Below, one piece after another: positions 47,167 to 64,000 of a stretch of DNA of 64,000 nt (positions are counted from its first letter, which is position 1; the number at the start of each line of letters is the position of its first letter). The notes under the pieces were generated by a model, which was not told the origin of the DNA, searched no databases, and was given only the letters and a program-made list of their open reading frames with translations. A program made the translations under genes and the position numbers. Source of the DNA: Nguyenibacter vanlangensis (GTDB taxonomy: Bacteria; Pseudomonadota; Alphaproteobacteria; Acetobacterales; Acetobacteraceae); the NCBI RefSeq assembly GCF_038719015.1, contig NZ_CP152276.1, positions 1,746,001-1,810,000 of the forward strand. The letters are read 5' to 3'.

Positions 47167-49278
47167 CTACAAGCCAAGTCCCCTGCCCCGACCCAGTTCC
47201 CAGGAGATGCCGCCATGCTCGTCCATGGAGATCGCCATCTCCTTCTGGCGCTGTCTGCCGATCTCCGGTCGCCAGGGCACCAGCGAGAATTCATGGCCGC
47301 TCTCCAGCACCGCGAAGCGCCCGCTGGCCAGATCGATCGGACCTTTCATCGTGCCCTGGATGGTCTCGAAGCGATCGAGGGGGCGCCACAGCTTCTCCCG
47401 CTTTTCGGCCATGGCCTGCCCGACCCGTTCCACCTCCCGCCCTTCCAGCGTCACCAGCAGGTTCTTCCGATAGCGCACCATGCCCTCCGGGGTCAGGCTG
47501 GCGTCCCCACGGTCGATCAGGGCCTTTTGCCGTCTGGCCAGGGCATCACCGACCTCGCCCCCGAACCCGGCCTCCACCCGATCGCCGTCGCGACCGGCCC
47601 CGGCCACCAGACGCCGGTCGAGCCAGGTCGCGCCATCGGAGCCGATCTGCGCCTCCAGATCGAAGGCGGACAGCAGCCGCACCGTCGCCTTCGGGGCACG
47701 CGCGGCATCATAGGCGAGAACCTTCTGCTGGAAATCTTCCGGAATGCGCCAGCGGTCGGCCTCCAGCCGCTCCACGATCCCCGCCCGGCGTAACGCCTCC
47801 AGACGGCGGACATAGCCTTTGATCAGGTCTTCCGGCGTGCCTTTGAGGCTCCAGCGGTCGAGCTGCATCTGCTCCAGATGGGCGGAAGGGCGATAGATCC
47901 CGTTCTCGGTATGCGCGAGGATCGCCCGATCGGACGGGCGCGGCTTGTCGGGGACCGGAGCGGCGGCGATCTCCACGATCGCGCCAGCGGGGATGTCCTC
48001 CATCTGGGCCGGATCGAAGCCGCGCAGGTGATGCACCCGCCCGTCGAGGCCATCGACCACCAGCGACAGGTTTTCCCCGAGTTCATCGGTCAGGTGCCGG
48101 TCCACCAACCTCCCCGCCACCGGCCGCTCCGGGGCCTCGCTATGGAAGCGGAAATGCCCAGGATCGCGTGTCGGCGCTGTTCCGTTGTCGCGCGCCTTCA
48201 GGGCACGGTGCATCTGCTTCGTGATGTCGTCGCGCTCGCCCAAATTCCCCAGACGCTCTTCCAGCCGCTCCTCGAGCGTCCACCGCCCCGGCGCTGTCTG
48301 GTTCGCCAGCCCCATGCGTTCCAGCTTCGCGAGGCGCGACAGGCGCAGCCGCCGATCAACCAGATCGGAGGCTGGCGTCTCGATACCGGGGCGCATGTCG
48401 AGGCTTCCATCCCGCGCCTGCGCCAGCAGGGCACGGTCGATGCGGGTGAAGCGGTCACGGTCGATCTCGCTCTCCAGCTTCTGCCGCTGCTCGATCTCGG
48501 ACACGGGGCCGAGTTCCAGCGTCACGAACTCGGAGGCGCGTTCGCGGAGGCCGTGGGTGATGTAGCTGCCATCGATGACAAGGTCTTTGCCCTGGTCGTC
48601 GCGGCCATTGACCACGACATGGACATGGGGATGGGCGGTGTTGAAATGGTTCACCGCCACCCAGTCCAGCCGTGTGCCGAGATCGGCTTCCATCTGCGTC
48701 ATCAGGTCGCGCGTGAAGTCCGTGAGGTCATCCATCCGTTCGGCGTCTTCCGGTGAGACGATGAACCTGAACTGATGCCGGTCGTCCGCGCCGCGTTCGA
48801 GGAAGGCTTTCGCATCGGTGTGGTCGGTTTCCGGGCCATACAGGACGCCACGCTCGCCGTCGCGGGACGTGCCATCGCGCTGGATGTAGCGCAGGTGGGC
48901 GGCGGCCCCGCCTCCCTTTCCGGCCTGACGCGCGACACGCGCCTTCACGGTCACACGCCGGGCACCAGACACCTGATGCCGCCAACCCACGATCCCGCGT
49001 GCCCTGACGAAGGACGCACCCCGCCCGCGACCGACGCCACGGTAGGACGCGGAACGCGACGCGCTCCTCGCGCAAGAGGACGCGCCAGAGCCGGAAGATG
49101 AGCGGCGGCCATTGCCGCCGCTCGACCCGCTGCCTCCCCTCTTAGCGGGGGACGGGGATTGCCTGCGGACCTGCGTACGAACCGCAGCCAGGAAGTCGGC
49201 GCGACCGCGCGCGGCCCCGCCCTTCGAGCGGATGCGTCCAACTCTGGGACGGAACGCGGTGTCGTCATCCTGCGCCAT
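47167..49278 (-). CDS. VirD2-type relaxase with DUF3363
   Basis: A 703-residue relaxase. Residues about 105-235 form the nickase core, including a Tyr in HLRYIQRDG, VSPEDAERMDDLTDFTRDLM, and the metal triad His216-His218-His220 (NTAHPHVHVVVNG). The remaining two thirds is DUF3363. The first 100 residues are unusually rich in Ser, Gly and Arg, a flexible basic leader. It nicks oriT and stays bound to the 5' end for conjugative transfer. A candidate oriT lies 160-200 bp upstream of its start. No coupling protein or mating-pair genes are visible nearby. Confidence 0.9.
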   Translation of the reverse strand: MAQDDDTAFRPRVGRIRSKGGAARGRADFLAAVRTQVRRQSPSPAKRGGSGSSGGNGRRSSSGSGASSCARSASRSASYRGVGRGRGASFVRARGIVGWRHQVSGARRVTVKARVARQAGKGGGAAAHLRYIQRDGTSRDGERGVLYGPETDHTDAKAFLERGADDRHQFRFIVSPEDAERMDDLTDFTRDLMTQMEADLGTRLDWVAVNHFNTAHPHVHVVVNGRDDQGKDLVIDGSYITHGLRERASEFVTLELGPVSEIEQRQKLESEIDRDRFTRIDRALLAQARDGSLDMRPGIETPASDLVDRRLRLSRLAKLERMGLANQTAPGRWTLEERLEERLGNLGERDDITKQMHRALKARDNGTAPTRDPGHFRFHSEAPERPVAGRLVDRHLTDELGENLSLVVDGLDGRVHHLRGFDPAQMEDIPAGAIVEIAAAPVPDKPRPSDRAILAHTENGIYRPSAHLEQMQLDRWSLKGTPEDLIKGYVRRLEALRRAGIVERLEADRWRIPEDFQQKVLAYDAARAPKATVRLLSAFDLEAQIGSDGATWLDRRLVAGAGRDGDRVEAGFGGEVGDALARRQKALIDRGDASLTPEGMVRYRKNLLVTLEGREVERVGQAMAEKREKLWRPLDRFETIQGTMKGPIDLASGRFAVLESGHEFSLVPWRPEIGRQRQKEMAISMDEHGGISWELGRGRGLGL

Positions 49279-53025: not shown

Positions 53026-55446
53026 TCAGAACTCCGCACGCACGGTTCCAAAAAACTGGCGCGGAGCGCCGATCAGCATTGACTGGTAATCGCCGCTGAT
53101 AGGATTGCCCTGCTCACCCACAGTCGCGATGTAGCTCTTGTTCAGCAGGTTGTAGACATTGAATTCCAACGTGACGTGCTGAAGGATGCCATAGCCGCCG
53201 AACCGGTAGCGCGCACCGAGATTCATGATGAAATTCGACGGTACCCACGTATCGTTCATGTAGCTGAGGTAACGGCGCGACATATAGGTCGCGTCCAGAT
53301 TGGCGCTGACATGACCGTAGCGATAGACGAGCGACGATTTCCACATGAAGGACGGATAGTTCGGAACCTGCTTGCCCTTGATCCGTTCGAGCCCGTTCGA
53401 ATCCGTGAAGTTATTGTCGAAAGTCGAGCGATTCCAGCTGACGCTGTTGTACCACGACAACCCTTGCAGAAACCGATGATTGACGAACGGATGCAGTGTC
53501 AGGCTGGCCTCGGCACCGTCGGTGGTAACGCCGCCCACATTGTTGAGCGCGCCAACCAACTGGATGATCGGCCCAGAACTGACAACCTGCTGCCGGTTCT
53601 GGAAATTGACGCGGTAGCCGGTCAACAAGGCCGACAGATACCGGTCGTCATGACGATAGCCGACTTCATAAACATTGGATTCTTCCGGCTTCAGCTTCAT
53701 CGATTGCTGGAAAACCGTTTGATCACCGACCGACCAGGCAGATGCCGAAGCCCCCCCGCTCAGCCCGAACTGACTGAACGAACGCATGTTGCGGGCGAAA
53801 TCGAAGAACAGTTCGTCATTATGGGTAAAGCGCCAGTTCGCGCTCACCTGGGGCAGGAACGGACTGTATGCCGTCTTGGTCCCCGAAGGCAGCGTGTCGT
53901 ATCCGGTATAGGACGGATCGTTGGCGGTGATCCCGTCATGGGTGGTGACGAGCATCGACTTGAATCCCGCATTCACATGCAGGTTCGACGTAACATCGTA
54001 CGTATCCTGGAAATAAGTCTGGAACGTATTGGTGTTAAACACATACCCATAGGCATGATCGAAGGAATCACGGGGGTTGAGCCATGTGGTCGGGTCGGGC
54101 GGCAGTCCCTGTCCCAGCAGCGGCTCCTGGTACAGACGCAGATCGTTTCTGAACTGGTTGTTCTCGTACCAGATGCCCGCACTCAGGTGATTATGGGCGA
54201 TATGGTATTTTGCCGACGTCAGGAAACCGAAGCGCTGCACGTCCAGAGAATACCCCTGAAGCTGAAGCGGCGCACCGTTCGGTGACGAACCATAGGGCGA
54301 CGTAAACGTACTCAGCCCCGGATCGTAATCGCCATAGACCGAGGCCTGGACGCTCAACCGACTGGTGATATCCGACTTGAAGGTCAGGTAGCCAAAATAA
54401 TCCCGTCGCATTCCCGATGATTCGTAATAGCTGACGTCCAGCGGGTCATTGGTCAGGTTTTCGCCATGGGTAAATGTGCCCTTCGCCGCGAGGTAGGCCG
54501 CCTTGTAATTCGGATAGTAATTATCCACCCGCGTTCCCAGCGTATGGATATAGTTCAGCGACAGGTCCTGGTTATCCACTTCCTGGCGATTGGCCCAGTC
54601 GAAATAAGCTGTCAGCGAACTGCGAGTGCCGATCGGCTGGACGAGCTTGAAATTGACCTGCTGATATTTGTTCGCCCCATAACCTTTCCATTTGTCGATC
54701 GTGGAATCGGCGAACGAGGCGGAAAATTTTGTGCCGGTCGCGTTGAGAACACCGCTGTCCACACGGGCGAAGGTTCGAAACGCCGCATTGCTGCCGAATG
54801 TCTGCTCGACGAGCCCGCCCGCCTTGTCCGCCGGATCGAGTGTATGAAAGCTGATCGCAGCACCCAGATCGCTGGTCGACGCCACGTCGACGGCACCGGC
54901 CCCCTGCGAGATCGAGGCGTCATGCAGGTTTTCGGTCAGGACGGCCCGCGTCGAACTCAACCCATTATAGGTGTTATAGCCTTGTTCGCCGAGCGGTATG
55001 CCGTCGAGCGTGAAACCCAGCTGGTTTTCACTGAACCCGCGGGAATAGATCCGGGCCGACCATTCATAGGCCCCCATCGGGTCGGCTGAGGTAAAGACGA
55101 CGCCCGGCAAGTGGCCAAGGACCTTCAACGGACTGGTGCCCGGCACATAATTGGCGATCATCGTGCGCGTCGCCGCCTGAAGCTGACGGGTGGAGCCGCG
55201 CCCGTTGGCGACGACGTTGAGCGTCTCGGGCACCATCGCAGCCGCCGCAGCACGACCCGCCGGGGCCGAAGAGGCTGTCGCACCAGAGGCTGCCGACGGC
55301 CGCACGGCTTTCTGCGCGGAGGCCGGCTGGGCCGCAGGGGGGGAAAGCTGTGTCTGGGCCTGGGCAGACGCCATCAAGGCCATTCCCGATGCCGAAAGCA
55401 TGAGAAGCCGGGCTAGACGTGAGGCCTGCAAATGGAATGAGGACAT
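53026..55446 (-). CDS. TonB-dependent outer-membrane receptor
   Basis: An 806-residue receptor. The signal peptide (ARLLMLSASGMALMASAQAQ) is followed by an Ala/Pro-rich linker. The plug (about 110-220) carries VLGHLPGVVFTSADPMGAYE, SRGFSENQLGFTLDGIPLGE and ASISQGAGAVDVASTSDLGA. A 22-strand barrel ends in the usual Phe (FFGTVRAEF). It imports a ligand across the outer membrane with TonB energy. Start 55446 gives the signal peptide and has GAAGG upstream; the frame is open 28 codons further. No siderophore genes are nearby; its 3' neighbours are catabolic, so it may take up their substrate. Confidence 0.93.
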   Translation of the reverse strand: MSSFHLQASRLARLLMLSASGMALMASAQAQTQLSPPAAQPASAQKAVRPSAASGATASSAPAGRAAAAAMVPETLNVVANGRGSTRQLQAATRTMIANYVPGTSPLKVLGHLPGVVFTSADPMGAYEWSARIYSRGFSENQLGFTLDGIPLGEQGYNTYNGLSSTRAVLTENLHDASISQGAGAVDVASTSDLGAAISFHTLDPADKAGGLVEQTFGSNAAFRTFARVDSGVLNATGTKFSASFADSTIDKWKGYGANKYQQVNFKLVQPIGTRSSLTAYFDWANRQEVDNQDLSLNYIHTLGTRVDNYYPNYKAAYLAAKGTFTHGENLTNDPLDVSYYESSGMRRDYFGYLTFKSDITSRLSVQASVYGDYDPGLSTFTSPYGSSPNGAPLQLQGYSLDVQRFGFLTSAKYHIAHNHLSAGIWYENNQFRNDLRLYQEPLLGQGLPPDPTTWLNPRDSFDHAYGYVFNTNTFQTYFQDTYDVTSNLHVNAGFKSMLVTTHDGITANDPSYTGYDTLPSGTKTAYSPFLPQVSANWRFTHNDELFFDFARNMRSFSQFGLSGGASASAWSVGDQTVFQQSMKLKPEESNVYEVGYRHDDRYLSALLTGYRVNFQNRQQVVSSGPIIQLVGALNNVGGVTTDGAEASLTLHPFVNHRFLQGLSWYNSVSWNRSTFDNNFTDSNGLERIKGKQVPNYPSFMWKSSLVYRYGHVSANLDATYMSRRYLSYMNDTWVPSNFIMNLGARYRFGGYGILQHVTLEFNVYNLLNKSYIATVGEQGNPISGDYQSMLIGAPRQFFGTVRAEF

Positions 55447-55584
55447 GGGGCACCAACCTTCAACGGACAATGCTATCTTATGTATATTGTCATACCTATA
55501 ATACTTTAACGTCCAACACCCTTGCGTCAACGTACCAATCCGATTCCGGAATATAAATTTTGGTCCTGGATCGAAAAAAAGAAA

Positions 55585-56532
55585 TTACGCTTCGTTTCCG
55601 GCTCCATATCGTTCCTCAAGGGCATCCGTCGTCAGCAGGGAGCGCTCCAGCGCCTGCATCGCGGGGAACCCCATCAGCGACCAGATATCGTCTATCCCGA
55701 CCAGCAGATCCGGCCGCTCGACCGTCTCTCCCGTGTCGACGGACTGCTTCATGGCGGCCAGTGCCGAGCGCATGCCCATGATCGCGGCCGCAGGCAACAT
55801 ACGCGGCAGGCTGATCCGGCGTACCCCCAGTTCCTTCAGGCGTCGCGGCGAAATCAGCGGCGTCGTGGGCCGCGCACGAATGCCGAAACCCATATTGATC
55901 GACACCGGCACCCCGGCCGTCTCGACGATGCGCGCGATCACGTCCTCCGATCCCACGGCATCGGGAAAGATCATGTCCGCTCCGGCCGCGACATAAGCCC
56001 GCACACGTTCGAGCGTGGCATCCAGCCCCTCGACGGCCAGAGCATCGGTGCGGGCGATGACGACAAAATCGTCATCGCGCCGGGCCATGCAGGCAGCCTC
56101 GATCTTCTTGACCATCTCCGCCTTGCCGACCAACGCCTTGCCGGGCATGTGGCCGCACCGCTTGGGGCTGGCCTGATCCTCGATATTCATCCCCGCCAGG
56201 CCGGCATCCTCGAACATACGTGTCGTGTACCAGGCATTCATCGGATTGCCGTAGCCGTTATCGGCATCAGCCGTCACCGGGATTGACACCGCCCGCGCAA
56301 TGGCGCGGCATTGCGCCACATTTTCTGCCAGCCCCATCAGGCCCACATCCTCGATGCCCAGCACGGCGTTCGCAATCGCGGCCCCACTGGTCGCGGCGCA
56401 GCAAAACCCCGCCGCCTCGGTCAACCGCACGCTGTAGCCATCATAGACTCCGGGCGCGACGAGAAACGTACCGGAAGAGATCAGCTCCCGCAGGCGCGCG
56501 GCGGCGGAGGGAAGAGCCGTGGAACGGGTCAT
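55585..56532 (-). CDS. Isocitrate lyase/PEP-mutase family lyase
   Basis: A 315-residue protein of the ICL/PEPM superfamily. Metal-binding VTADADNGYG (86-95), catalytic loop KRCGH (124-128, with PKRCGHMPGK) and early APGVYDGYSVRLTEAAGF are intact. The KRCGH loop with Cys is shared by lyases that cleave C-C bonds (methylisocitrate, dimethylmalate, oxaloacetate-type), not phosphonate mutases. It would release a keto acid from a 2-hydroxy diacid. It is divergent from an aconitase-family gene across 117 bp, and the pair suggests successive hydration and cleavage. The start 56532 has AAGGACT upstream; the frame is open 21 codons further. Confidence 0.9.
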   Translation of the reverse strand: MTRSTALPSAAARLRELISSGTFLVAPGVYDGYSVRLTEAAGFCCAATSGAAIANAVLGIEDVGLMGLAENVAQCRAIARAVSIPVTADADNGYGNPMNAWYTTRMFEDAGLAGMNIEDQASPKRCGHMPGKALVGKAEMVKKIEAACMARRDDDFVVIARTDALAVEGLDATLERVRAYVAAGADMIFPDAVGSEDVIARIVETAGVPVSINMGFGIRARPTTPLISPRRLKELGVRRISLPRMLPAAAIMGMRSALAAMKQSVDTGETVERPDLLVGIDDIWSLMGFPAMQALERSLLTTDALEERYGAGNEA

Positions 56533-56586
56533 CGGAGTCCTTCTTGTCGAATGTTCGGACTCGAAATAAGTCACCCCCCAACAAAC

Positions 56587-56649
56587 TGTCAACACTTATG
56601 CCGGACAGAACGCTTGATCTTGAGCCGTATCTTAAAATAGTGTCGACAC
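56587..56649. promoter_or_regulatory. GntR-type operator candidates in the lyase/aconitase divergent promoter
   Basis: The perfect palindrome GTGTCGACAC (56640-56649) abuts the aconitase start codon, and a related TGTCAACA lies at 56587-56594. Both fit the loose GntR/FCD half-site theme yGT-nn-ACr. The FCD-type GntR encoded at 60693 is the natural candidate. Confidence 0.45.
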
Positions 56650-59307
56650 ATGCAGCGATCATATTGGACAGACACCTCGCCCCGCCAGATCGATCTGGCA
56701 GTGGTCACCGCCCGAATGGGCACCAGCCTCGGCACGCTTCCATTCTGTGTGCGAATCCTGCTGGAAAATGTCGCGCGCCAGGCCCTGCAGGCCAATGGCG
56801 ACCATCTGTCGGATCCGACCCTGGCCGATCTCGCTGCGGTCATCCGCCGCACCCCCGCCGATCGCGGCCATGGGGTGGCGCTCGCCGTCTCCCGCGTGAT
56901 CCTGCCCGATTCCAGTGGCGTTCCCGTCCTGCAGAATCTCGCCGGCATGCGCGACGTCGTCGCGGCCCGCAGCGGAGATGCCCGGGCAGTATCGCCCTGC
57001 GTCCCGCTCGATCTGATCGTCGATCATTCCCTGCAGGTCGATGTCTCCGGCACCCCCGATGCCCTGATCCGGAACCTCGCCTGCGAATACGAGCGCAATA
57101 CCGAACGATACGCCTTTCTCAAATGGGCCCAGCAGGCCATGCCGGGGCTGACGCTGCATCCGCCGGGCAGCGGCATCATCCATCAGATCAATCTGGAACG
57201 CCTGGCCCGCGTCATGGTCGAAACCCCGGTGCCAGACGGCATGATCGTCCATCCCGAATTCGTCCTGGGCGGCGATTCCCATACCCCGATGGTCAACGCA
57301 CTGGGCGTTCTGGGCTGGGGCGTCGGCGGACTGGATATCGAGGCCGCCCTGCTCGGCCAGCCCTATGTCGTGCCGGTGCCCGAAATCGTGGGCGCGTTGC
57401 TCGACGGCATCCCGCCCCCCGGCGTGATGACGACCGACCTCGCATTCCTAGTGACTGAGACGCTGCGCCGAGCCAACGTCACCGGTGCCTTCGTCGAGTT
57501 CTTCGGCCCCGCCATACGCCACCTGCGGCTGGAAGAACGCGCCACCCTCGCCAACATGGCACCCGAATACGGCGCAACCTGCGGCTTCTTCGCCGTCGAC
57601 GAGGAAACCTGCCGCTACATGGCTGCAACACGCGGCGCAGCAGCGGATCTGGAAACATGGACCCGGCGCGGCGGCCTCTTCCGACCTCTGGCGCTCCCCT
57701 CTCCCGATCCCATCTATGATCGGGTCATCCGGATCGACCTGTCGACACTGGGCCTGTCCGTCGCAGGTCCACGCCGCCCGGAACAGCGCCTGCCCCTCGC
57801 GGAGGCCGCACGCTCCTTCCGCACGCTGCAGAACGAGGAAGACGGCACCCTTCGCCAGGTGGACGGCATCGCCGACGGCGCAGTCGCCATCGCGGCCATC
57901 GCCTCCTGCACCAATACCGCCAATCCCTCTGTCATGCTGGCGGCCGGTCTGGTCGCCGCCAAAGCCGTCGCACGCGGCATGCGCGTGCCCCCGTGGGTCA
58001 AGACATCCATGACCCCCGGTTCGCCGTCGGTGAAAACATTGCTGGAACGCACCGGCCTGCTCGCTTCGTTGGAGGCACTGGGCTTCGCGATTGCCGGCTA
58101 CGGCTGCACCACCTGCGGTGGCAAATCGGGGCCATTGCTGCCGGTGATGGAACAGGCGATCGAACGGCATGGCGTGCGGGCCGTCGCCGTGCTGTCGGGC
58201 AACCGGAACTTCGAGGGCCGCATCCACCGCCTGCTGCCGGCAAACTACCTGGCCTCGCCTCCCCTGGTGGTCCTCTTCGCCCTGGCGGGACGCGTGGATC
58301 TCGATCTGCAATCGGACCCTGTCGGCCACGATTCCACCGGCGCGGCCGTCCATCTGCGCGACCTCTGGCCCACGTCAGAAGAATTGTCCGCGGCCCTCGG
58401 CGACAATGCGGGCCGAGGCGGCCCAGGTGAAGCGCCCGAGGAAAGCCGACACCTCTGGCGCACTCTCGCGGCACCCGGTGGCGATACCTATCCCTGGCAG
58501 CCAGACTCCGCCTATCTCTGCCGCCCCCGCCTCGGCGCCCAGAATGGCGCAGACTGGTCGCTGGACGATATCGACGGCGCAAGAGTGCTGGCGGCATTCG
58601 GCGATTCCCTGACAACCGATCACATCTCGCCCAGTGGCGAAATTCCGCCAGACAGTCCGGCCGGACTCTACCTCTCCGGCCTGGGCATCGCACGTCCGGC
58701 GTTCAACACCTACGTCGCCCGCCGCGGCAACCCGGAGGTGATGACACGCGCGACCTTCGCCAATATTCGTATCCGCAATGCGCTGGCCGGCGACGGCAGG
58801 GGGTGGGAAACACCCGGCCCCGACGGCACGCGCCAGACCATCCATGACGCTGCCATGGCATGGCGCGCCCGCGACGTGCCCCTGATCGTGCTGGGCGGCC
58901 ATCGCTACGGCACCGGCAGCAGCCGCGACTGGGCGGCCCGCGGCACGGCCATGCTGGGCGTACGAATCGTGATCGCCCGCGATTTCGAGCGGATTCACCG
59001 CGCCAATCTGGTCGGGATGGGCGTCCTTCCCCTGCTGTTCGCGGACGGCGAAAGCTGGCCGGAACTCGGGCTGACCGGCCTCGAGACCTTCTCCTTTCAC
59101 GGGTTGCGGGCCGGCATCGCCGATGGCGCCCCAATCACCGTCGAAGCCGCAGGAGACACCGGCATCCGCCGTTTCGTCACCCATGCGGCATTGCTGACGA
59201 ACAGCGAACGCGCCCTCCTGCGGCAGGGCGGCATACACGAGGCCCTGCTGGCGGCGGTTGCCCCGGACCTGCGGCCGCAACACGGAGCAGATGACAATGA
59301 AGGCTGA
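56650..59307 (+). CDS. Aconitase-family hydratase (AcnA architecture), divergent
   Basis: An 885-residue single-chain aconitase-type enzyme. The 4Fe-4S ligands are Cys420 (IASCTNTANPS), Cys486 and Cys489 (GYGCTTCGGKSGP). Active-site segments LGGDSHTPMVNALGVLGWGV, SGNRNFEGRIH and RYGTGSSRDWAARG are present. Family proteins usually read CTTCIGNSG; here it is CTTCGGKSG. I think it is a paralogue devoted to a catabolic diacid rather than the housekeeping enzyme. No Shine-Dalgarno precedes ATG 56650, so the message may be leaderless. The start of the next gene overlaps its end. Confidence 0.9.
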   Translation: MQRSYWTDTSPRQIDLAVVTARMGTSLGTLPFCVRILLENVARQALQANGDHLSDPTLADLAAVIRRTPADRGHGVALAVSRVILPDSSGVPVLQNLAGMRDVVAARSGDARAVSPCVPLDLIVDHSLQVDVSGTPDALIRNLACEYERNTERYAFLKWAQQAMPGLTLHPPGSGIIHQINLERLARVMVETPVPDGMIVHPEFVLGGDSHTPMVNALGVLGWGVGGLDIEAALLGQPYVVPVPEIVGALLDGIPPPGVMTTDLAFLVTETLRRANVTGAFVEFFGPAIRHLRLEERATLANMAPEYGATCGFFAVDEETCRYMAATRGAAADLETWTRRGGLFRPLALPSPDPIYDRVIRIDLSTLGLSVAGPRRPEQRLPLAEAARSFRTLQNEEDGTLRQVDGIADGAVAIAAIASCTNTANPSVMLAAGLVAAKAVARGMRVPPWVKTSMTPGSPSVKTLLERTGLLASLEALGFAIAGYGCTTCGGKSGPLLPVMEQAIERHGVRAVAVLSGNRNFEGRIHRLLPANYLASPPLVVLFALAGRVDLDLQSDPVGHDSTGAAVHLRDLWPTSEELSAALGDNAGRGGPGEAPEESRHLWRTLAAPGGDTYPWQPDSAYLCRPRLGAQNGADWSLDDIDGARVLAAFGDSLTTDHISPSGEIPPDSPAGLYLSGLGIARPAFNTYVARRGNPEVMTRATFANIRIRNALAGDGRGWETPGPDGTRQTIHDAAMAWRARDVPLIVLGGHRYGTGSSRDWAARGTAMLGVRIVIARDFERIHRANLVGMGVLPLLFADGESWPELGLTGLETFSFHGLRAGIADGAPITVEAAGDTGIRRFVTHAALLTNSERALLRQGGIHEALLAAVAPDLRPQHGADDNEG

Positions 59308-60670
59308 CCTCTTGCTCAAGGACGGGCAGATCGTCTGGCCCGGCCTCGGAACGGGCCGGGGCTCCGTCGCCGTCCGCGACGGAAAGATCGCCGCCATCCT
59401 CGCCCCGGGCGAAGACATTCCCGCCCATCGTGTGATTCCCTGTCACGGTACCTGGATCATGCCGGGGCTGATCGACCCGCACACCCATTTCGGTTTTGGA
59501 GCGGGCGACGACGATTTCCGCACGGAATCCCGCTCGGCGGCGCTGGGTGGCGTCACGTCCTATCTCAGTTTCCACCGCTCCGCCGACCTCGCGGATTCCA
59601 CCCCCCGCTGGATCGCCGCCGGCGAACGGCTTTCCTGTCTCGATTTCGGCTGCCATTTCGGCCTGACCAGCCTGCGCCACGTCGCCCAGTTGCCCGAGGT
59701 CATGGAGCGTTTCGGCGTCAATTCAGCGAAACTCTACCTGATGTACAAAGGCGCTTCCGGTGCCGCGAAGGGCTTCACCGAAATCGACGACGGGCTACTG
59801 TTCGCGGCAATGCGCCAACTGGCATCCCTGTCCGGCTCGGTGCTGGGTGTGCATTGCGAGAATGTCGAAGTCATTCCCGGCCTGCGTACTCCGCTGCGCG
59901 AAGCCGGCCGCGACGATCTGGCGGCCTGGGACGAACAGAGCCCCGATTTCCTCGAAGCCGAGAACGTGTTCCGCGTCGGCTATTTCAGCGAAAAGACACG
60001 CTGCCGGGTCAACATCGTACACCTGTCGGCCGGCGAGGGGCTCGATATCGTCCAGATGCTGCGCGCTCGCAGCCATCCCGCCCCGATAGAGGTCGAGACC
60101 TGCGCCCACTACCTGTCCCTGTCGACCGACAGCACCGCCGGCCTGCTGGGCAAGGTCAATCCCCCGCTGCGCGGCCGGCGCGATGTCGACGCCTTGTGGA
60201 ACGGCATTGCAAAAGGGCAGATTCTCACCGTCGGTTCCGATCACGTCCCACGCAAGCGCGCGACCAAGGGCCCCGACATATGGCAGGCATCGGCGGGGTT
60301 TCCCGGCATCGCGACCCTGCTGCCGGTGCTGATCACCGAAGGATGGCACCAGCGCGGCATCCCGCCCGAACGCCTGGCGGCCGTCACATCGGCAAACGTC
60401 GCGGCTCTGTATCGCATTCCCGGCAAAGGCTCCATGCGGGTCGGCGACGACGCCGACCTGGTGGTCGTCGATCCCGATTGCGAAAGGGTGGTGCAGGCGG
60501 CGACGCTGGAATCGCACTCCGACTATTCGCCGTACGAGGGGATGACATTGCGTGGCTGGCCGTCCCTGACAGTTGCCGGAGGCCGCGTCATGATGGAAAA
60601 CGGCACCCTGACGGACGAAGCGGAGACACGTCGCGGCCGCTATCTCCACCGTACGTCCGGCGCGGGGTGA
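59291..60670 (+). CDS. Dihydropyrimidinase/allantoinase-like cyclic amidohydrolase
   Basis: A 459-residue amidohydrolase with a full binuclear metal set: His64 and His66 (DPHTHFGFG), the carbamylated Lys153 (LYLMYKGASG), His188 (LGVHCENVE), His244 (NIVHLSAGEG) and Asp317 (VGSDHVPRKR). It resembles hydantoinases, dihydroorotases and allantoinases that open cyclic amides or imides. ATG 59291 overlaps the aconitase end by 17 bp; ATG 59297 is an alternative. In this cluster it could open a cyclic amide to the acyclic diacid used by the next enzymes. Substrate not known. Confidence 0.9.
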   Translation: MTMKADLLLKDGQIVWPGLGTGRGSVAVRDGKIAAILAPGEDIPAHRVIPCHGTWIMPGLIDPHTHFGFGAGDDDFRTESRSAALGGVTSYLSFHRSADLADSTPRWIAAGERLSCLDFGCHFGLTSLRHVAQLPEVMERFGVNSAKLYLMYKGASGAAKGFTEIDDGLLFAAMRQLASLSGSVLGVHCENVEVIPGLRTPLREAGRDDLAAWDEQSPDFLEAENVFRVGYFSEKTRCRVNIVHLSAGEGLDIVQMLRARSHPAPIEVETCAHYLSLSTDSTAGLLGKVNPPLRGRRDVDALWNGIAKGQILTVGSDHVPRKRATKGPDIWQASAGFPGIATLLPVLITEGWHQRGIPPERLAAVTSANVAALYRIPGKGSMRVGDDADLVVVDPDCERVVQAATLESHSDYSPYEGMTLRGWPSLTVAGGRVMMENGTLTDEAETRRGRYLHRTSGAG

Positions 60671-60692
60671 CAACAGGATCAAGGAGAATGTC

Positions 60693-61430
60693 ATGGACGG
60701 TCAGGAGGAAGACGACAGCGCCCGCTCGCTGGGCGAAGCGCTGTTTCGTGACATCCTGGCCCTGATCCATTCGGGCGGGATCGCCCCCGGCGCCACGCTG
60801 GGCGAAGCGACCCTGGCCCGTCAGTTCGGCGTCAGCCGCGGCCCGGTGCGCGAGGCGATACGCCGCCTGCAGGGCATCGGCCTGGTCACCCGCGAGCCTT
60901 TCGCCCGCGCACGCGTGGCATTGCTGGACAGGGCAGCGGTAGACGACCTGTTCGACATGCGCGTCGCACTGGAAGGCCGCGCCTGCGCCCTGGCCGCCAC
61001 CCGCATGGACGAGTCCGCGATCACCTGCCTGCTGGCCGCGCTCGAGCAGGCGCGTCGCCGCGACCTGGGCGATCCCGACATCCCCCCCGACGATTTCGAC
61101 TTTCACCTCCAGTTGATCGAGCATGCGAGCAGCCCGCGCATCTCGGCGGTCTTGGGCGGCGATCTCTATCCGCTGCTCCGGCTCTATCGCCGCTGGTCCG
61201 GCGCCCGGCCGGAACGCAAGAGCGTCGCATACCAGGAACATTGGCAGATCCTGCGCGCAATCCGCTCGCGCGACGCTGACCTGGCCCGCTCGCTGATGGA
61301 ACAGCATATCGAAAAGGCGCGCGCCAACCTCATGACCGCGCTGGACGCATCGCCCACCATCCGACCAGCGCCAGCAGTGCAATCACCAGCGGCACCAGCC
61401 GCTCCGATCCTTCCAGCAGACCAAGCGTAA
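60693..61430 (+). CDS. GntR-family regulator, FCD (FadR-like) subgroup
   Basis: A 245-residue regulator. The N-terminal winged helix reads LGEATLARQFGVSRGPVREA, then IRRLQGIGLVTREPFARARV. The FCD helical domain carries the expected metal-ligand-like residues (DDFDFHLQLIEHASSPRI, EHWQILRAIRSRDADLARSL). FCD proteins answer to diacids and related metabolites. The last about 33 residues are a Pro/Ala-rich tail coded within the antisense end of the permease gene (61330-61430), suggesting an acquired tail. Likely target is the lyase/aconitase divergent promoter. Confidence 0.92.
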   Translation: MDGQEEDDSARSLGEALFRDILALIHSGGIAPGATLGEATLARQFGVSRGPVREAIRRLQGIGLVTREPFARARVALLDRAAVDDLFDMRVALEGRACALAATRMDESAITCLLAALEQARRRDLGDPDIPPDDFDFHLQLIEHASSPRISAVLGGDLYPLLRLYRRWSGARPERKSVAYQEHWQILRAIRSRDADLARSLMEQHIEKARANLMTALDASPTIRPAPAVQSPAAPAAPILPADQA

Positions 61431-62715
61431 CCCCGATCACCGCCAGGGTCGCGAGCGTGCCGGTCGCCGCGCAGAACCGCATCTCGCTACCTCCCCCGGG
61501 TAGCCGCCCCATCACGAATCCGCCGATGCAGGTCGCACACCAGGCGATCAGCAGGTTCAGGCTGGCAAATGTGCCGATCCAGATGAACCACCCCATATAG
61601 GATTCCTGTCCCGGTACCGGCCCCGTCGCAATGCGGATCGCGGCCACCAGCGCCGCCGTTCCGCCCAGCAAGACCAGATTGGGCAGCACCGGCACCCCGC
61701 GCCCGTTGCTGGTGCGGGCAAAGGCGGCGGGCAGCACCCCGTCACGCGCCAGACACAGCAACCCGCGCGCGATGGCGATGCTGCCGGCCGTAATCATCGC
61801 CAGTACGTCGGCAAGGGTCATCGTCATCAGAATGCCCTCGATCGCCGGCCCGCCGTAGCGTGGGTCCGCCGCCAGGGCCAGCAGCGGCATCTCCTGTCCG
61901 CCCAGGCGCCCCGCGTCGGCACCGAACCCGGCCAGGGCCGCAAAGGCCGTCAGCAGGTAGAAGGCCGCATTGACCCAGATCGTCAGGATCATGGCGCACG
62001 GAATGGCCCGCGTCGGGTTGCGGCATTCCTCGGCCAGACTCGCCGCCCCCTCGAAACCGCCATACATGAAAAAGGCGAAGCTCAGCCCCATCATGACACC
62101 GGCCAGCCCGTGCCCCTGCGCCGCCGGCAGCAGACCCGCCTGCGCCACCGCCGGAAGATGCGGCGACTGCACCAGAACCCAGGCGGAGAACAGCCCGACG
62201 GCACCGATCGACACGACGCTGATGGCAAGCTGCAGATGCACCGCCATCGTGATGCCGCGGGAAACCGACAGCGCCACCAGTGCCAGTCCACCCAGCGCCC
62301 CCAGCCACCATGGCAGCACATGGCCGGTCAGATGGTCGGCCATCGTGGCCGCCAGCCCGCCGAAAGTCAGCGTACCGTTGACGAAGGCCGCAATCGCACA
62401 GGCATAGAACAGCAGCCCGAACACGGTGCCCGCCCGACGCCCGAGAGAAAGCTTGAGGTAATCGTACAACGATCCCGGCGTGCGGACCTGCCGCGCGAAA
62501 CCCGCAAAGACACGGGCAACGGCCATCAGCAGAAACGCGGCGATCAGAATGCACAGCGGCACCGCCCCGCCCGCGCCGAAGCCCGAAGCCCCCACCGTCA
62601 CCAGCGGCACGAAGACGATCGCCGAATAGATCGGCCCGACGCCCGAGGCGGCCTGGGCCACCACGTCGGCCAGGCCGAGTTCGCCGCGCAGACGGCCGGA
62701 AGGCGCGGCGGTCAT
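61330..62715 (-). CDS. APC-superfamily amino acid/amide permease
   Basis: A 461-residue permease with about 12 helices. Typical segments are GLADVVAQAASGVGPIYSAI in TM1, YDYLKLSLGRRAGTVFGLLF, and SFAFFMYGGFEGAASLAEEC in TM6. It would import an amino acid, polyamine or cyclic amide using the proton gradient. The start overlaps the stop of the UTRA-type GntR gene (ATGA), so these two are co-translated. Its 3' end overlaps the FCD-type GntR gene in antisense by 101 bp. Confidence 0.9.
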   Translation of the reverse strand: MTAAPSGRLRGELGLADVVAQAASGVGPIYSAIVFVPLVTVGASGFGAGGAVPLCILIAAFLLMAVARVFAGFARQVRTPGSLYDYLKLSLGRRAGTVFGLLFYACAIAAFVNGTLTFGGLAATMADHLTGHVLPWWLGALGGLALVALSVSRGITMAVHLQLAISVVSIGAVGLFSAWVLVQSPHLPAVAQAGLLPAAQGHGLAGVMMGLSFAFFMYGGFEGAASLAEECRNPTRAIPCAMILTIWVNAAFYLLTAFAALAGFGADAGRLGGQEMPLLALAADPRYGGPAIEGILMTMTLADVLAMITAGSIAIARGLLCLARDGVLPAAFARTSNGRGVPVLPNLVLLGGTAALVAAIRIATGPVPGQESYMGWFIWIGTFASLNLLIAWCATCIGGFVMGRLPGGGSEMRFCAATGTLATLAVIGVTLGLLEGSERLVPLVIALLALVGWWAMRPARS

Positions 62716-63554
62716 TCCGTTCCCGCTGCGGGCGGGGCCAGATCGCGCACGCTCAGATGCAGGGCATGCTCGCCATGCCGCAGGCTTTCCGCCGAATAGG
62801 AAAGGAAATATTCGTACCGGTCCGGGCGGTACATCACCATCAGCCGCTCCACGACGCGCCCGGCGGCATCCCGCGCGATTCGCAGCATGGACAGCAGCGG
62901 CGTGCCGATATCCACTCCCAGCGCCTCGGCCGCCGTCGCATCGGCCGCACAGGCGTTGAGGTGCTCGTCGAAATCGTGCAGTTCCACGCCCGCGGCTTCC
63001 AGCGCGGCGGAAACCGGCAGCGTCCCCAATTGCCGGCGCGGCAGGAAACGGGCGAACTCCGCAGGCAGCAGACAGACGGAATGCGATATCGCGGAGCGCG
63101 TGTCCGAGCGCACGCGTTCGATCCGCAGCAACGGCGCATCGACCGGCACGCCCAGCTGTTCAGCCATGACCGGCGACGCATCGACGGTTTCATAACCGAC
63201 GATCCGCACCTGGGTCTTGAAGGCCAGCGAGACCTGATTACGCCGTACCGCAGTCGACTGCATGGCCGCCCGGATCGGGGCCGCGAGCGGAAAGGTCCCG
63301 CGCCCACGCAGGCGACGGATCAGCCCCTCGCTTTCCAGCCGCTTCATCGCCGTGCGCAGCGTAATGCGCGACACGCCGAAGACCTCGGACAGCTCCGCCT
63401 CCGTCGGCATGGGCTCATCCGGCTGGAAACTGCCCTCCATGAGCTTGCGATACAGCACGACGTAGACACGATGATGCAGGGGAATCAGCGATTGTTGCGA
63501 CAGGGGCTCGATATCGCGCAGGGCGGTCTGGACAGTCGGTTTCTTGGCAGCCAT
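62712..63554 (-). CDS. GntR-family regulator, HutC/UTRA subgroup
   Basis: A 280-residue regulator. The winged helix is LHHRVYVVLYRKLMEGSFQP, TEAELSEVFGVSRITLRTAM and KRLESEGLIRRLRGRGTFP. The UTRA ligand domain follows (LGVPVDAPLLRIERVRSD, ISHSVCLLPAEFARFLP, RYEYFLSYSAESLRHGEH). The start 63554 was chosen by domain; the frame is open 63 codons further. It is coupled by ATGA to the permease, and probably controls it and the racemase-type gene in response to the pathway substrate. Confidence 0.93.
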   Translation of the reverse strand: MAAKKPTVQTALRDIEPLSQQSLIPLHHRVYVVLYRKLMEGSFQPDEPMPTEAELSEVFGVSRITLRTAMKRLESEGLIRRLRGRGTFPLAAPIRAAMQSTAVRRNQVSLAFKTQVRIVGYETVDASPVMAEQLGVPVDAPLLRIERVRSDTRSAISHSVCLLPAEFARFLPRRQLGTLPVSAALEAAGVELHDFDEHLNACAADATAAEALGVDIGTPLLSMLRIARDAAGRVVERLMVMYRPDRYEYFLSYSAESLRHGEHALHLSVRDLAPPAAGTE

Positions 63555-63667
63555 GAAAATTCTGGGAACTCGCGTCGGTTTGCCCCGCAATGAAGCACGG
63601 AACGACACGCGTGATCCATCCATCCTCCACGCCCACCGCCCCTCCGGGGGCACGATTGCGGCCGCGG

Positions 63668-64000
63668 TCACGCCACCTCCGGCAGAACGGCCTCCAGCAC
63701 CGGCGCGGACACGCGCACGCCGGCCGCCCGGCGCAGCCACCACGCGCAGGCGATGTTCGACGACAGGATCGGCACGAACCCCGCCTGCCGCGCCGCCAGA
63801 ATCGCCGGCAACGTCAGCAGGCCGGTCCCGCTGATGGCCACCGCCTGCGCATCGCCCGAAATGCCATCCAGCCCCCGCTGAACGTCCGCCGTACCCATCT
63901 CGTAGGCACGGAATGTGTCCGACAGGCTCACCACCTGCACCACGTCATGGCCGGCCGCCTCCCAATAGGCCACGGCCTGCGCCGTCAACGCCTTCTGGTA
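63668..64000 (-). CDS. Asp/Glu racemase/maleate isomerase-type enzyme, C-terminal part
   Basis: The C-terminal 110 residues of an Asp/Glu racemase superfamily enzyme, of the maleate cis-trans isomerase/arylmalonate decarboxylase branch; the 5' part lies beyond the right edge. Visible are YWEAAGHDVVQVVSLSDTFR and AVAISGTGLLTLPAILAARQ followed by ILSSNIACAWWLRRAAG. Where relatives have a catalytic Cys (S-C-[GT]-[GN]-L) this protein has SGTGL, so the second Cys is Gly. It could act as isomerase or decarboxylase using the N-terminal Cys alone, or be altered. Same strand as the permease and GntR pair, which lie downstream of it. Confidence 0.82.
   Translation of the reverse strand, partial: YQKALTAQAVAYWEAAGHDVVQVVSLSDTFRAYEMGTADVQRGLDGISGDAQAVAISGTGLLTLPAILAARQAGFVPILSSNIACAWWLRRAAGVRVSAPVLEAVLPEVA

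Follow-up and report, generated by a model that had tools for sequence, protein, structure and literature searches.

What compound is degraded by a gene cluster that sets an aconitase-like hydratase and a lyase of the phosphoenolpyruvate (PEP) mutase/isocitrate lyase family beside a ring-opening amidohydrolase? The question is raised by the right-hand end of a 64,000-nucleotide stretch of the Nguyenibacter vanlangensis genome (hereafter the window; positions 1,746,001 to 1,810,000 of NZ_CP152276.1, a 4.75 Mb genome in a single contig). An initial annotation of the window had placed there a lyase with a KRCGH loop, an aconitase paralogue, an amidohydrolase, a permease, a TonB receptor and two GntR regulators, and every gene that it named was confirmed when the open reading frames were compared with Pfam and NCBIfam profiles. 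We propose that the cluster serves the catabolism of a pyrrole-type nitrogen heterocycle. The likeliest substrate is PBG (porphobilinogen) or a similar pyrrole derived from tetrapyrroles, an assignment to which we give roughly even confidence. This reading explains the pairing of hydrolases, the aconitate skeleton, the basic residues gained by the hydratase and the lyase, and the location of hemC beside these genes in a number of lineages.

Conservation of the core and its accessory modules

An alignment of 22 amidohydrolase sequences was used to scan reference genomes, and 80 loci of 88 relatives were kept. The core was called where a lyase (at least 50% identity), a hydratase (at least 45%) and an amidase (at least 60%) lay within 10 kb of the amidohydrolase. 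All three stood beside the amidohydrolase in 69 of the 80 loci, and the core was complete in 60 of the 63 loci that had at least 9 kb on both flanks (the exceptions being L090, L091 and L095). This grouping is far above chance, and the co-occurrence in other genomes on which the initial annotation had staked its pathway is what we find. Among the three enzymes, conservation is highest in the amidase (71-84% identity outside Gluconacetobacter). A single-chain hydratase is present at 45% identity or more in 75 of the 80 loci, in agreement with the earlier remark that an AcnA-type single chain takes the place of a two-subunit enzyme.

Two accessory modules accompany this core. Module a consists of a flavoprotein (23 loci), an SDR enzyme (38), and the carboxylate-transporter genes TctC (37) and TctA (21), to which a CobW-type gene is often added (31 loci). 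Module b is built on a monooxygenase and a protein resembling arylmalonate decarboxylase (AMDase), which occur as a pair in 20 of the 80 loci and are joined by an aldehyde dehydrogenase in 18; a UTRA-type GntR regulator, an ABC transporter and an aminotransferase are often present as well. The aminotransferase was found in nine loci, and in six Bosea-group regions just beyond the fetched edge. For the UTRA-type regulator, the open reading frame family occurs in 13 loci, and a match at E 1e-8 or better in 16 of 80, ten of these at 40% identity or more. This build is mirrored by the window's two GntR genes, of which the FCD type goes with the core and the UTRA type with the second module. Just three of the 80 loci, all Gluconacetobacter, were found to have the TonB receptor and the APC permease, which therefore fall outside the conserved pathway; the initial annotation was right that they lie beside the core.

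Altered pockets of the hydratase and the lyase

The roles of individual residues in the aconitase and PrpB pockets are well established. We compared 72 hydratases (that of the window and those of 71 of the 80 loci, at 45.5% identity and 85% length or more) with 20 AcnA controls, all from one bacterial family. The window's hydratase meets the AcnA subfamily profile NF006757 (984.6 bits, 686 needed), lies below the AcnA equivalog TIGR01341 (890.4 bits, 945 needed) and far below AcnD TIGR02333 (628.7 bits, 1419.85 needed). The iron-sulphur ligands and the DH, HQ and DSH motifs are retained relative to AcnA, and so are the aconitase arginine sites (LSGNRNFEGR, RR at 691-692 and GSSRD). Residue 86, which we take to be the counterpart of the IRP1 active-site Q86, is proline in 72/72 hydratases, whereas all 20 AcnA carry the active-site glutamine. 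Residue 492, three after the last cluster cysteine, is lysine in all 72, in contrast to asparagine in 20/20 AcnA, and the isoleucine that adjoins this cysteine in AcnA is replaced by Gly, Ser or Ala, again in 72/72. Human IRP1 has Gln and Asn at the two altered positions.

The lyase was compared in a second set of 72 sequences, comprising that of the window and those of 71 of 83 loci (at least 50% identity and 85% length), a count that leaves out more divergent members, among them the L095 and L091 lyases. It matches Pfam PEP_mutase with 177 bits and fails the PrpB methylisocitrate lyase profile TIGR02317 (226 bits, 354.4 needed). The KRCGH catalytic loop is present in 72/72, as is a substrate loop NMGFGxRxRPTTP with two extra arginines, noted in the form NMGFGIRxRPTTP when set against solved PrpB enzymes, where the loop reads NITEFG-TP or NLTEFG-TP; in 2,3-dimethylmalate lyase it reads NMVEHGATP. 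The two-arginine loop is absent from the L095 and L091 lyases. At L095, a two-subunit hydratase of the LeuC/LeuD type and a divergent lyase (L095:7335-9972) stand in for the usual pair beside the amidohydrolase. This locus, the only one of its kind, offers a natural contrast in which a different hydratase goes with a lyase that lacks the two-arginine loop.

Because the hydratase gains a lysine and the lyase two arginines, while the arginine sites of aconitase stay, the two enzymes probably act on a compound of greater acidity than citrate and not on a dimethylmalate. Judged from these residues, the compound handled by the two enzymes would keep the carboxylates of aconitate and carry one more acidic group. 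Nicotinate fermentation, which the initial annotation had taken as its closest model, holds in outline, in that a cyclic amide or imide would be opened and passed to a hydratase and an isocitrate lyase (ICL)-type lyase, but the added Lys and Arg speak against its dimethylmaleate and dimethylmalate chemistry. The accompanying suggestion of a new aerobic version survives as a conserved aerobic-type route for a cyclic amide or imide, detached from that chemistry.

Ring-opening hydrolases and the enzymes of module b

The initial annotation had credited the amidohydrolase with a full set of metal ligands. Residues H61, H63, K150, H185, H241 and D314 (numbered on window:59300-60667), presumably the ligands of a binuclear metal site including a carbamylated lysine, are invariant in 22/22 aligned sequences. 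The enzyme lies below the D-hydantoinase/dihydropyrimidinase profile TIGR02033 (254.6 bits, 393.25 needed), and its nearest solved relative is L-hydantoinase. For the amidase, the nearest solved relative is N-carbamoylsarcosine amidohydrolase; the putative isochorismatase 3ot4/3uao, which we assume to be a maleamate amidase, was also among the matches. Isochorismatase homologues at about 48-50% identity (H4, H9) occur in other contexts and give no hint of the substrate.

Maleate isomerase has two catalytic cysteines and arylmalonate decarboxylase one. The AMDase-like protein belongs to this fold family (Pfam Amdase, 41.4 bits, 25.9 needed), as the annotation of a maleate-isomerase-type enzyme had implied. 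In 24 sequences, however, taken from the window and 23 of the same 83 loci and aligned to 2xec/2xed, neither of the two family stretches holds a cysteine in any member (0/24). The protein therefore departs from normal maleate isomerases and from normal arylmalonate decarboxylases alike, and with both cysteines lost, maleate isomerase activity is unlikely. The nearest solved relatives of the monooxygenase are PnpA and HspB, and those of the aminotransferase are glutamate-1-semialdehyde (GSA) aminomutases. The flavoprotein of module a resembles flavocytochrome c and tricarballylate dehydrogenase, at scores under their cut-offs.

hemC at the cluster

Hydroxymethylbilane synthase, the product of hemC, acts on PBG, whose pyrrole ring bears aminomethyl, acetate and propionate groups. 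On a Shinella plasmid, an annotated hemC adjoins the aminotransferase of the cluster. We searched 26 genomes for hemC: 23 had yielded loci in which a hemC was known or genes of module b occur, two came from a class scan and one was the host's own. The gene was found at the cluster in ten of them: G533-G537 and G549 (Bosea group), G544 (Shinella), G539 (Azospirillum), G548 (a Burkholderiales metagenome-assembled genome) and G373. For seven of these ten, retrieved again by contig name, the lengths of the contigs agree with those of the contigs that carry the cluster. It adjoins the aminotransferase in 6/6 Bosea-group regions, and in L150 hemC, the AMDase-like gene and the monooxygenase gene are consecutive on one strand. 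In G373 it accompanies the monooxygenase and AMDase-like genes. In Azospirillum the core is accompanied by hemC, and the 30 kb read there showed no orthologous monooxygenase module. The genomes behind loci without module b carry one full-length hemC in 32/32 (with an extra weak fragment in G561; L096 lay outside the search), and no hemC was found inside the fetched loci of these 32 genomes.

Full-length cluster copies of HemC keep, in alignment, a Lys-Asp pair and a cysteine that we take to be the catalytic motif and the cofactor attachment residue. The cluster copies do not group together in the HemC tree but occupy three distinct positions (Bosea/G373, Azospirillum and Shinella), which requires at least three label changes. 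The number is at least four when L141, a second Bosea-type copy that is not at this cluster, is included, three without it, and still three when the doubtful G548 is also left out. Azospirillum sits on a long branch, and three changes could equal one gain and two losses. The tree suggests, short of strictly excluding gain and loss, that hemC was recruited to the cluster repeatedly.

The ancestral gene of the hemCD locus (L152:8323-9207) is mostly deleted in four of the six Bosea-group genomes (L154-L157), where the flanks at L152:8404 and 9246 are joined with 22-27 bases between them and no N, and approximately the last 27 codons still align. The cluster copy was the only hemC found in these four genomes. 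With the ancestral gene deleted and no other copy detected, the cluster copy therefore appears able to act as the sole hydroxymethylbilane synthase. In G537 the ancestral hemC is seemingly gone as well, and a second cluster-type copy lies elsewhere in the genome (L151:8300-9259, on G537:C7). The neighbours of that copy, judged by eye, resemble MocR-type regulator, amidase and ABC transporter genes, and the site is perhaps another hemC-linked catabolic cluster.

A proposed route for porphobilinogen

From the enzyme families we infer a substrate, an order of steps and a set of products. The aminotransferase would convert the aminomethyl group of PBG to an aldehyde, which the aldehyde dehydrogenase would oxidize to a pyrrole-2-carboxylate. 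Ring oxidation and decarboxylation by the flavin monooxygenase and its cysteine-less AMDase-like partner would then yield a succinimide or maleimide bearing CH2COOH and CH2CH2COOH groups. The amidohydrolase would open the imide ring, and the isochorismatase-type amidase would hydrolyse the resulting half-amide, releasing ammonia and carboxyethyl-cis-aconitate. In some relatives a desaturation by the TcuA-like flavoprotein may intervene, which would fit a succinate-level precursor in genomes with module a only. Finally, the aconitase-like hydratase is predicted to form 2-(carboxyethyl)isocitrate, and the methylisocitrate-lyase-like enzyme to cleave it to succinate and 2-oxoglutarate. With the extra hemC of some clusters, haem synthesis would be safeguarded during the consumption of PBG.

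Several observations weigh against this route. It calls for three two-electron ring oxidations, and neither these nor the role of the AMDase-like protein are cleanly assigned. Neither the monooxygenase nor the AMDase-like gene is present in 58 of the 80 loci, although some of these are cut short. Carboxylate-transporter genes of the TctC type are found in 37 loci, and since 32/32 searched genomes behind loci without module b carry one full-length hemC, the entry substrate there is left unexplained. Sixteen of the 26 genomes searched, that of the host among them, have no hemC beside the cluster genes, and L041, L072 and L107, which are among the ten positives, had been picked with hemC already known. 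The core was not found on the 25 kb contig of G373, the hemC near the cluster in G548 may be a housekeeping copy, and the Bosea cluster hemC could in principle be the relocated native gene. The nearest relatives of the amidohydrolase and the amidase are also compatible with a ureide.

A search of the literature by title, with most subscription journals outside it, found no bacterial pathway of PBG catabolism and no account of the cluster. The enzyme families are known; within the limits of the open literature, the pathway and two proposed activities appear to be unreported, and to our knowledge neither the proposed hydratase nor the proposed lyase activity has been described before. We advance more tentatively that this would be the first bacterial pathway to consume PBG, or the same pyrrole from broken tetrapyrroles, with a recruited hemC that shields haem synthesis and has replaced the native gene in some Bosea. 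Many proteobacteria carry genes labelled aconitase, isocitrate lyase, dihydroorotase and isochorismatase that would be parts of a single catabolic route. If the substrate is PBG, that route would return tetrapyrrole precursors to central metabolism, and it would provide a clear case of a catabolic island that supplies, and then replaces, an essential gene of haem synthesis.

Alternative substrates

The best-surviving alternative, which we consider unlikely, is a different cyclic imide or a pyridine-type ring (citrazinate-like, or a glutarimide) that the amidohydrolase and the amidase would convert to a substituted aconitate for the hydratase and the lyase. Among the relatives of the monooxygenase is HspB, an enzyme of hydroxypyridine metabolism, and the enzyme logic is that of the fungal HxnM and HxnN steps, but HxnM is described as related to HP0310 and PuuE (PMC9304392) and so belongs to another family than the cluster amidohydrolase. 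This alternative leaves both the GSA-type aminotransferase and the hemC found at the cluster in several lineages without explanation. For citrazinate in particular, none of the 20 titles listed, out of 65 papers on citrazinic acid or aconitamide, names a microbial pathway, and most concern carbon dots and other chemistry.

A hydantoin or dihydropyrimidine pathway is improbable. The amidohydrolase would open such a ureide ring to an N-carbamoyl acid and the isochorismatase-type enzyme would decarbamoylate it, as their nearest solved relatives, L-hydantoinase and N-carbamoylsarcosine amidohydrolase, would allow; decarbamoylation gives an amine, however, with no natural lead to an aconitase-type hydratase and a C-C lyase, and hemC is again not accounted for. 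Rather more doubtful is a PBG-like antimetabolite as the substrate, with the extra hemC as a resistant target copy instead of an insurance. The intact HemC motifs, the occurrence of the gene at the cluster in several lineages and its apparent ability to replace the native Bosea copy would all agree with this; against it, the core is widespread without hemC, and we know of no natural PBG-like antimetabolite of this kind. The methylcitrate cycle, or an ordinary duplication of tricarboxylic acid or glyoxylate cycle genes, is highly improbable despite the family resemblance to PrpB and AcnA, and the cycle was rejected: a search of the host's own genome found one citrate synthase only and no second match of the lyase family, the PrpB and AcnD equivalog cut-offs are missed, the pocket residues are altered and ring-opening hydrolases are linked, which bears out the initial annotation in looking beyond that cycle.

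Genomic setting

The genes of the cluster are collected in Table 1. The edge of the window falls inside the AMDase/maleate-isomerase-fold gene, and reading further right, as the initial annotation had advised, revealed a monooxygenase, an aldehyde dehydrogenase, a second amidase and an aminotransferase. On the reading proposed above, the window would contain the left half of a catabolic island. Transposase pieces, a relaxase (DUF3363) fragment and a resolvase lie right of the aminotransferase (L005:9480-18201), with a TrbI gene further right, and to the left of the cluster, at window 47167-49278, are a relaxase (DUF3363) and a DUF2840 gene. The cluster looks like it is seated on a conjugative-type island because it is flanked by these transposase, relaxase, resolvase and TrbI genes. 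In a sample of 150 genomes of the family, host included, the best hydratase match in the other 149 reached at most 765 bits, compared with 1996 for the window's own, and the family-genome matches were at most 50% identical among the matches listed. Among named proteins, the best matches are from Gluconacetobacter. Acquisition of the cluster from outside the family fits these scores, since they lie far below the window's own.

Table 1. Genes of the cluster in the window and in the stretch to its right (L005).
Gene product	Position	Strand	Remarks
TonB-dependent receptor	53026-55446	-	Lineage-specific neighbour, uptake candidate; 3/80 loci
PEP mutase/isocitrate lyase-family lyase	55585-56532	-	KRCGH loop; two additional Arg in NMGFGIRARPTTP loop; would catalyse final C-C cleavage
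Single-chain aconitase-like (AcnA-type) hydratase	56650-59307	+	Altered pocket
Dihydropyrimidinase/hydantoinase-family cyclic amidohydrolase	59297-60670	+	Proposed imide or lactam hydrolase
GntR regulator, FCD type	60693-61430	+	Accompanies core; at least 40% identity in 69/80 loci
APC-type permease	61330-62715	-	Lineage-specific uptake candidate; 3/80 loci
GntR regulator, UTRA type	62712-63554	-	Accompanies monooxygenase/aldehyde dehydrogenase module
AMDase/maleate-isomerase-fold protein, C-terminal part	63668-64000	-	Full gene to 64423, outside window (L005:3669-4424)
Flavin monooxygenase	L005:4414-5625	-	
Aldehyde dehydrogenase	L005:5689-7278	+	
Isochorismatase-family amidase	L005:7315-8037	+	
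Class III aminotransferase, GSA type	L005:8037-9326	+	

Other genes were seen beside the cluster in its relatives. A family of proteins of about 180-200 residues accompanies the monooxygenase module in seven loci (L109:11338-11931; L039, L045, L066, L072, L088 and L102); the copy tested had no Pfam match, and its predicted model has a mean pLDDT (predicted local distance difference test) of 72.6. Beside the Shinella cluster, L109:4094-9568 holds genes of the MmgE/PrpD and CapA families together with another AcnA-like gene. Upstream of the lyase in L042, L044 and L049 are genes for a methyltransferase-domain protein and diaminopimelate-decarboxylase-like proteins (families tested for L049). A polyamine-citrate siderophore, considered in view of the TonB receptor, a Pot-type ABC transporter and the decarboxylase-like genes of these three loci, was dropped because the monooxygenase and hemC would stay unexplained.

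Comparison with known systems

The 2-methylcitrate cycle uses an aconitase-family hydratase (AcnD) and a PEP-mutase-family lyase (PrpB) to split an alkyl-isocitrate into succinate and a 2-oxo acid. The cluster shares this pairing, but no second citrate synthase was found in the genome, and the cluster enzymes carry extra basic residues and are fed by ring hydrolases. Nicotinate fermentation in Eubacterium barkeri proceeds through ring amide hydrolysis, a two-subunit dimethylmaleate hydratase and an ICL-family lyase. Ring amide hydrolysis followed by a hydratase and an ICL-family lyase is common to both systems, whereas the cluster hydratase is a single AcnA-type chain, a flavin monooxygenase, a second amidase, an aminotransferase and hemC are found instead, and a more acidic substrate is implied.

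A flavin monooxygenase, an isochorismatase-type amidase and a maleate-isomerase-fold protein occur together in the aerobic lower pathways of nicotinate and nicotine (NicC/HspB, NicF and NicE). All three have counterparts in the cluster, where the isomerase-fold protein lacks both cysteines and a cyclic amidohydrolase, a hydratase and a lyase are added. In pyrrole-2-carboxylate degradation, a flavin monooxygenase brings a pyrrole acid with an unsubstituted ring to the level of 2-oxoglutarate. The flavin-dependent oxidation of a pyrrole acid would be common to both, while ring substituents and the aconitase/lyase pair belong to the proposed cluster route only. The nicotinate pathway of Aspergillus nidulans, which runs through monooxygenase steps, the imidase HxnM and the amidase HxnN to 2-hydroxyglutarate, uses a hydrolase of another family and has no aconitase/lyase pair named in the available part of its description (PMC9304392). 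It shares with the cluster the succession of a monooxygenase, the opening of an imide and the hydrolysis of an amide (PMC9304392).

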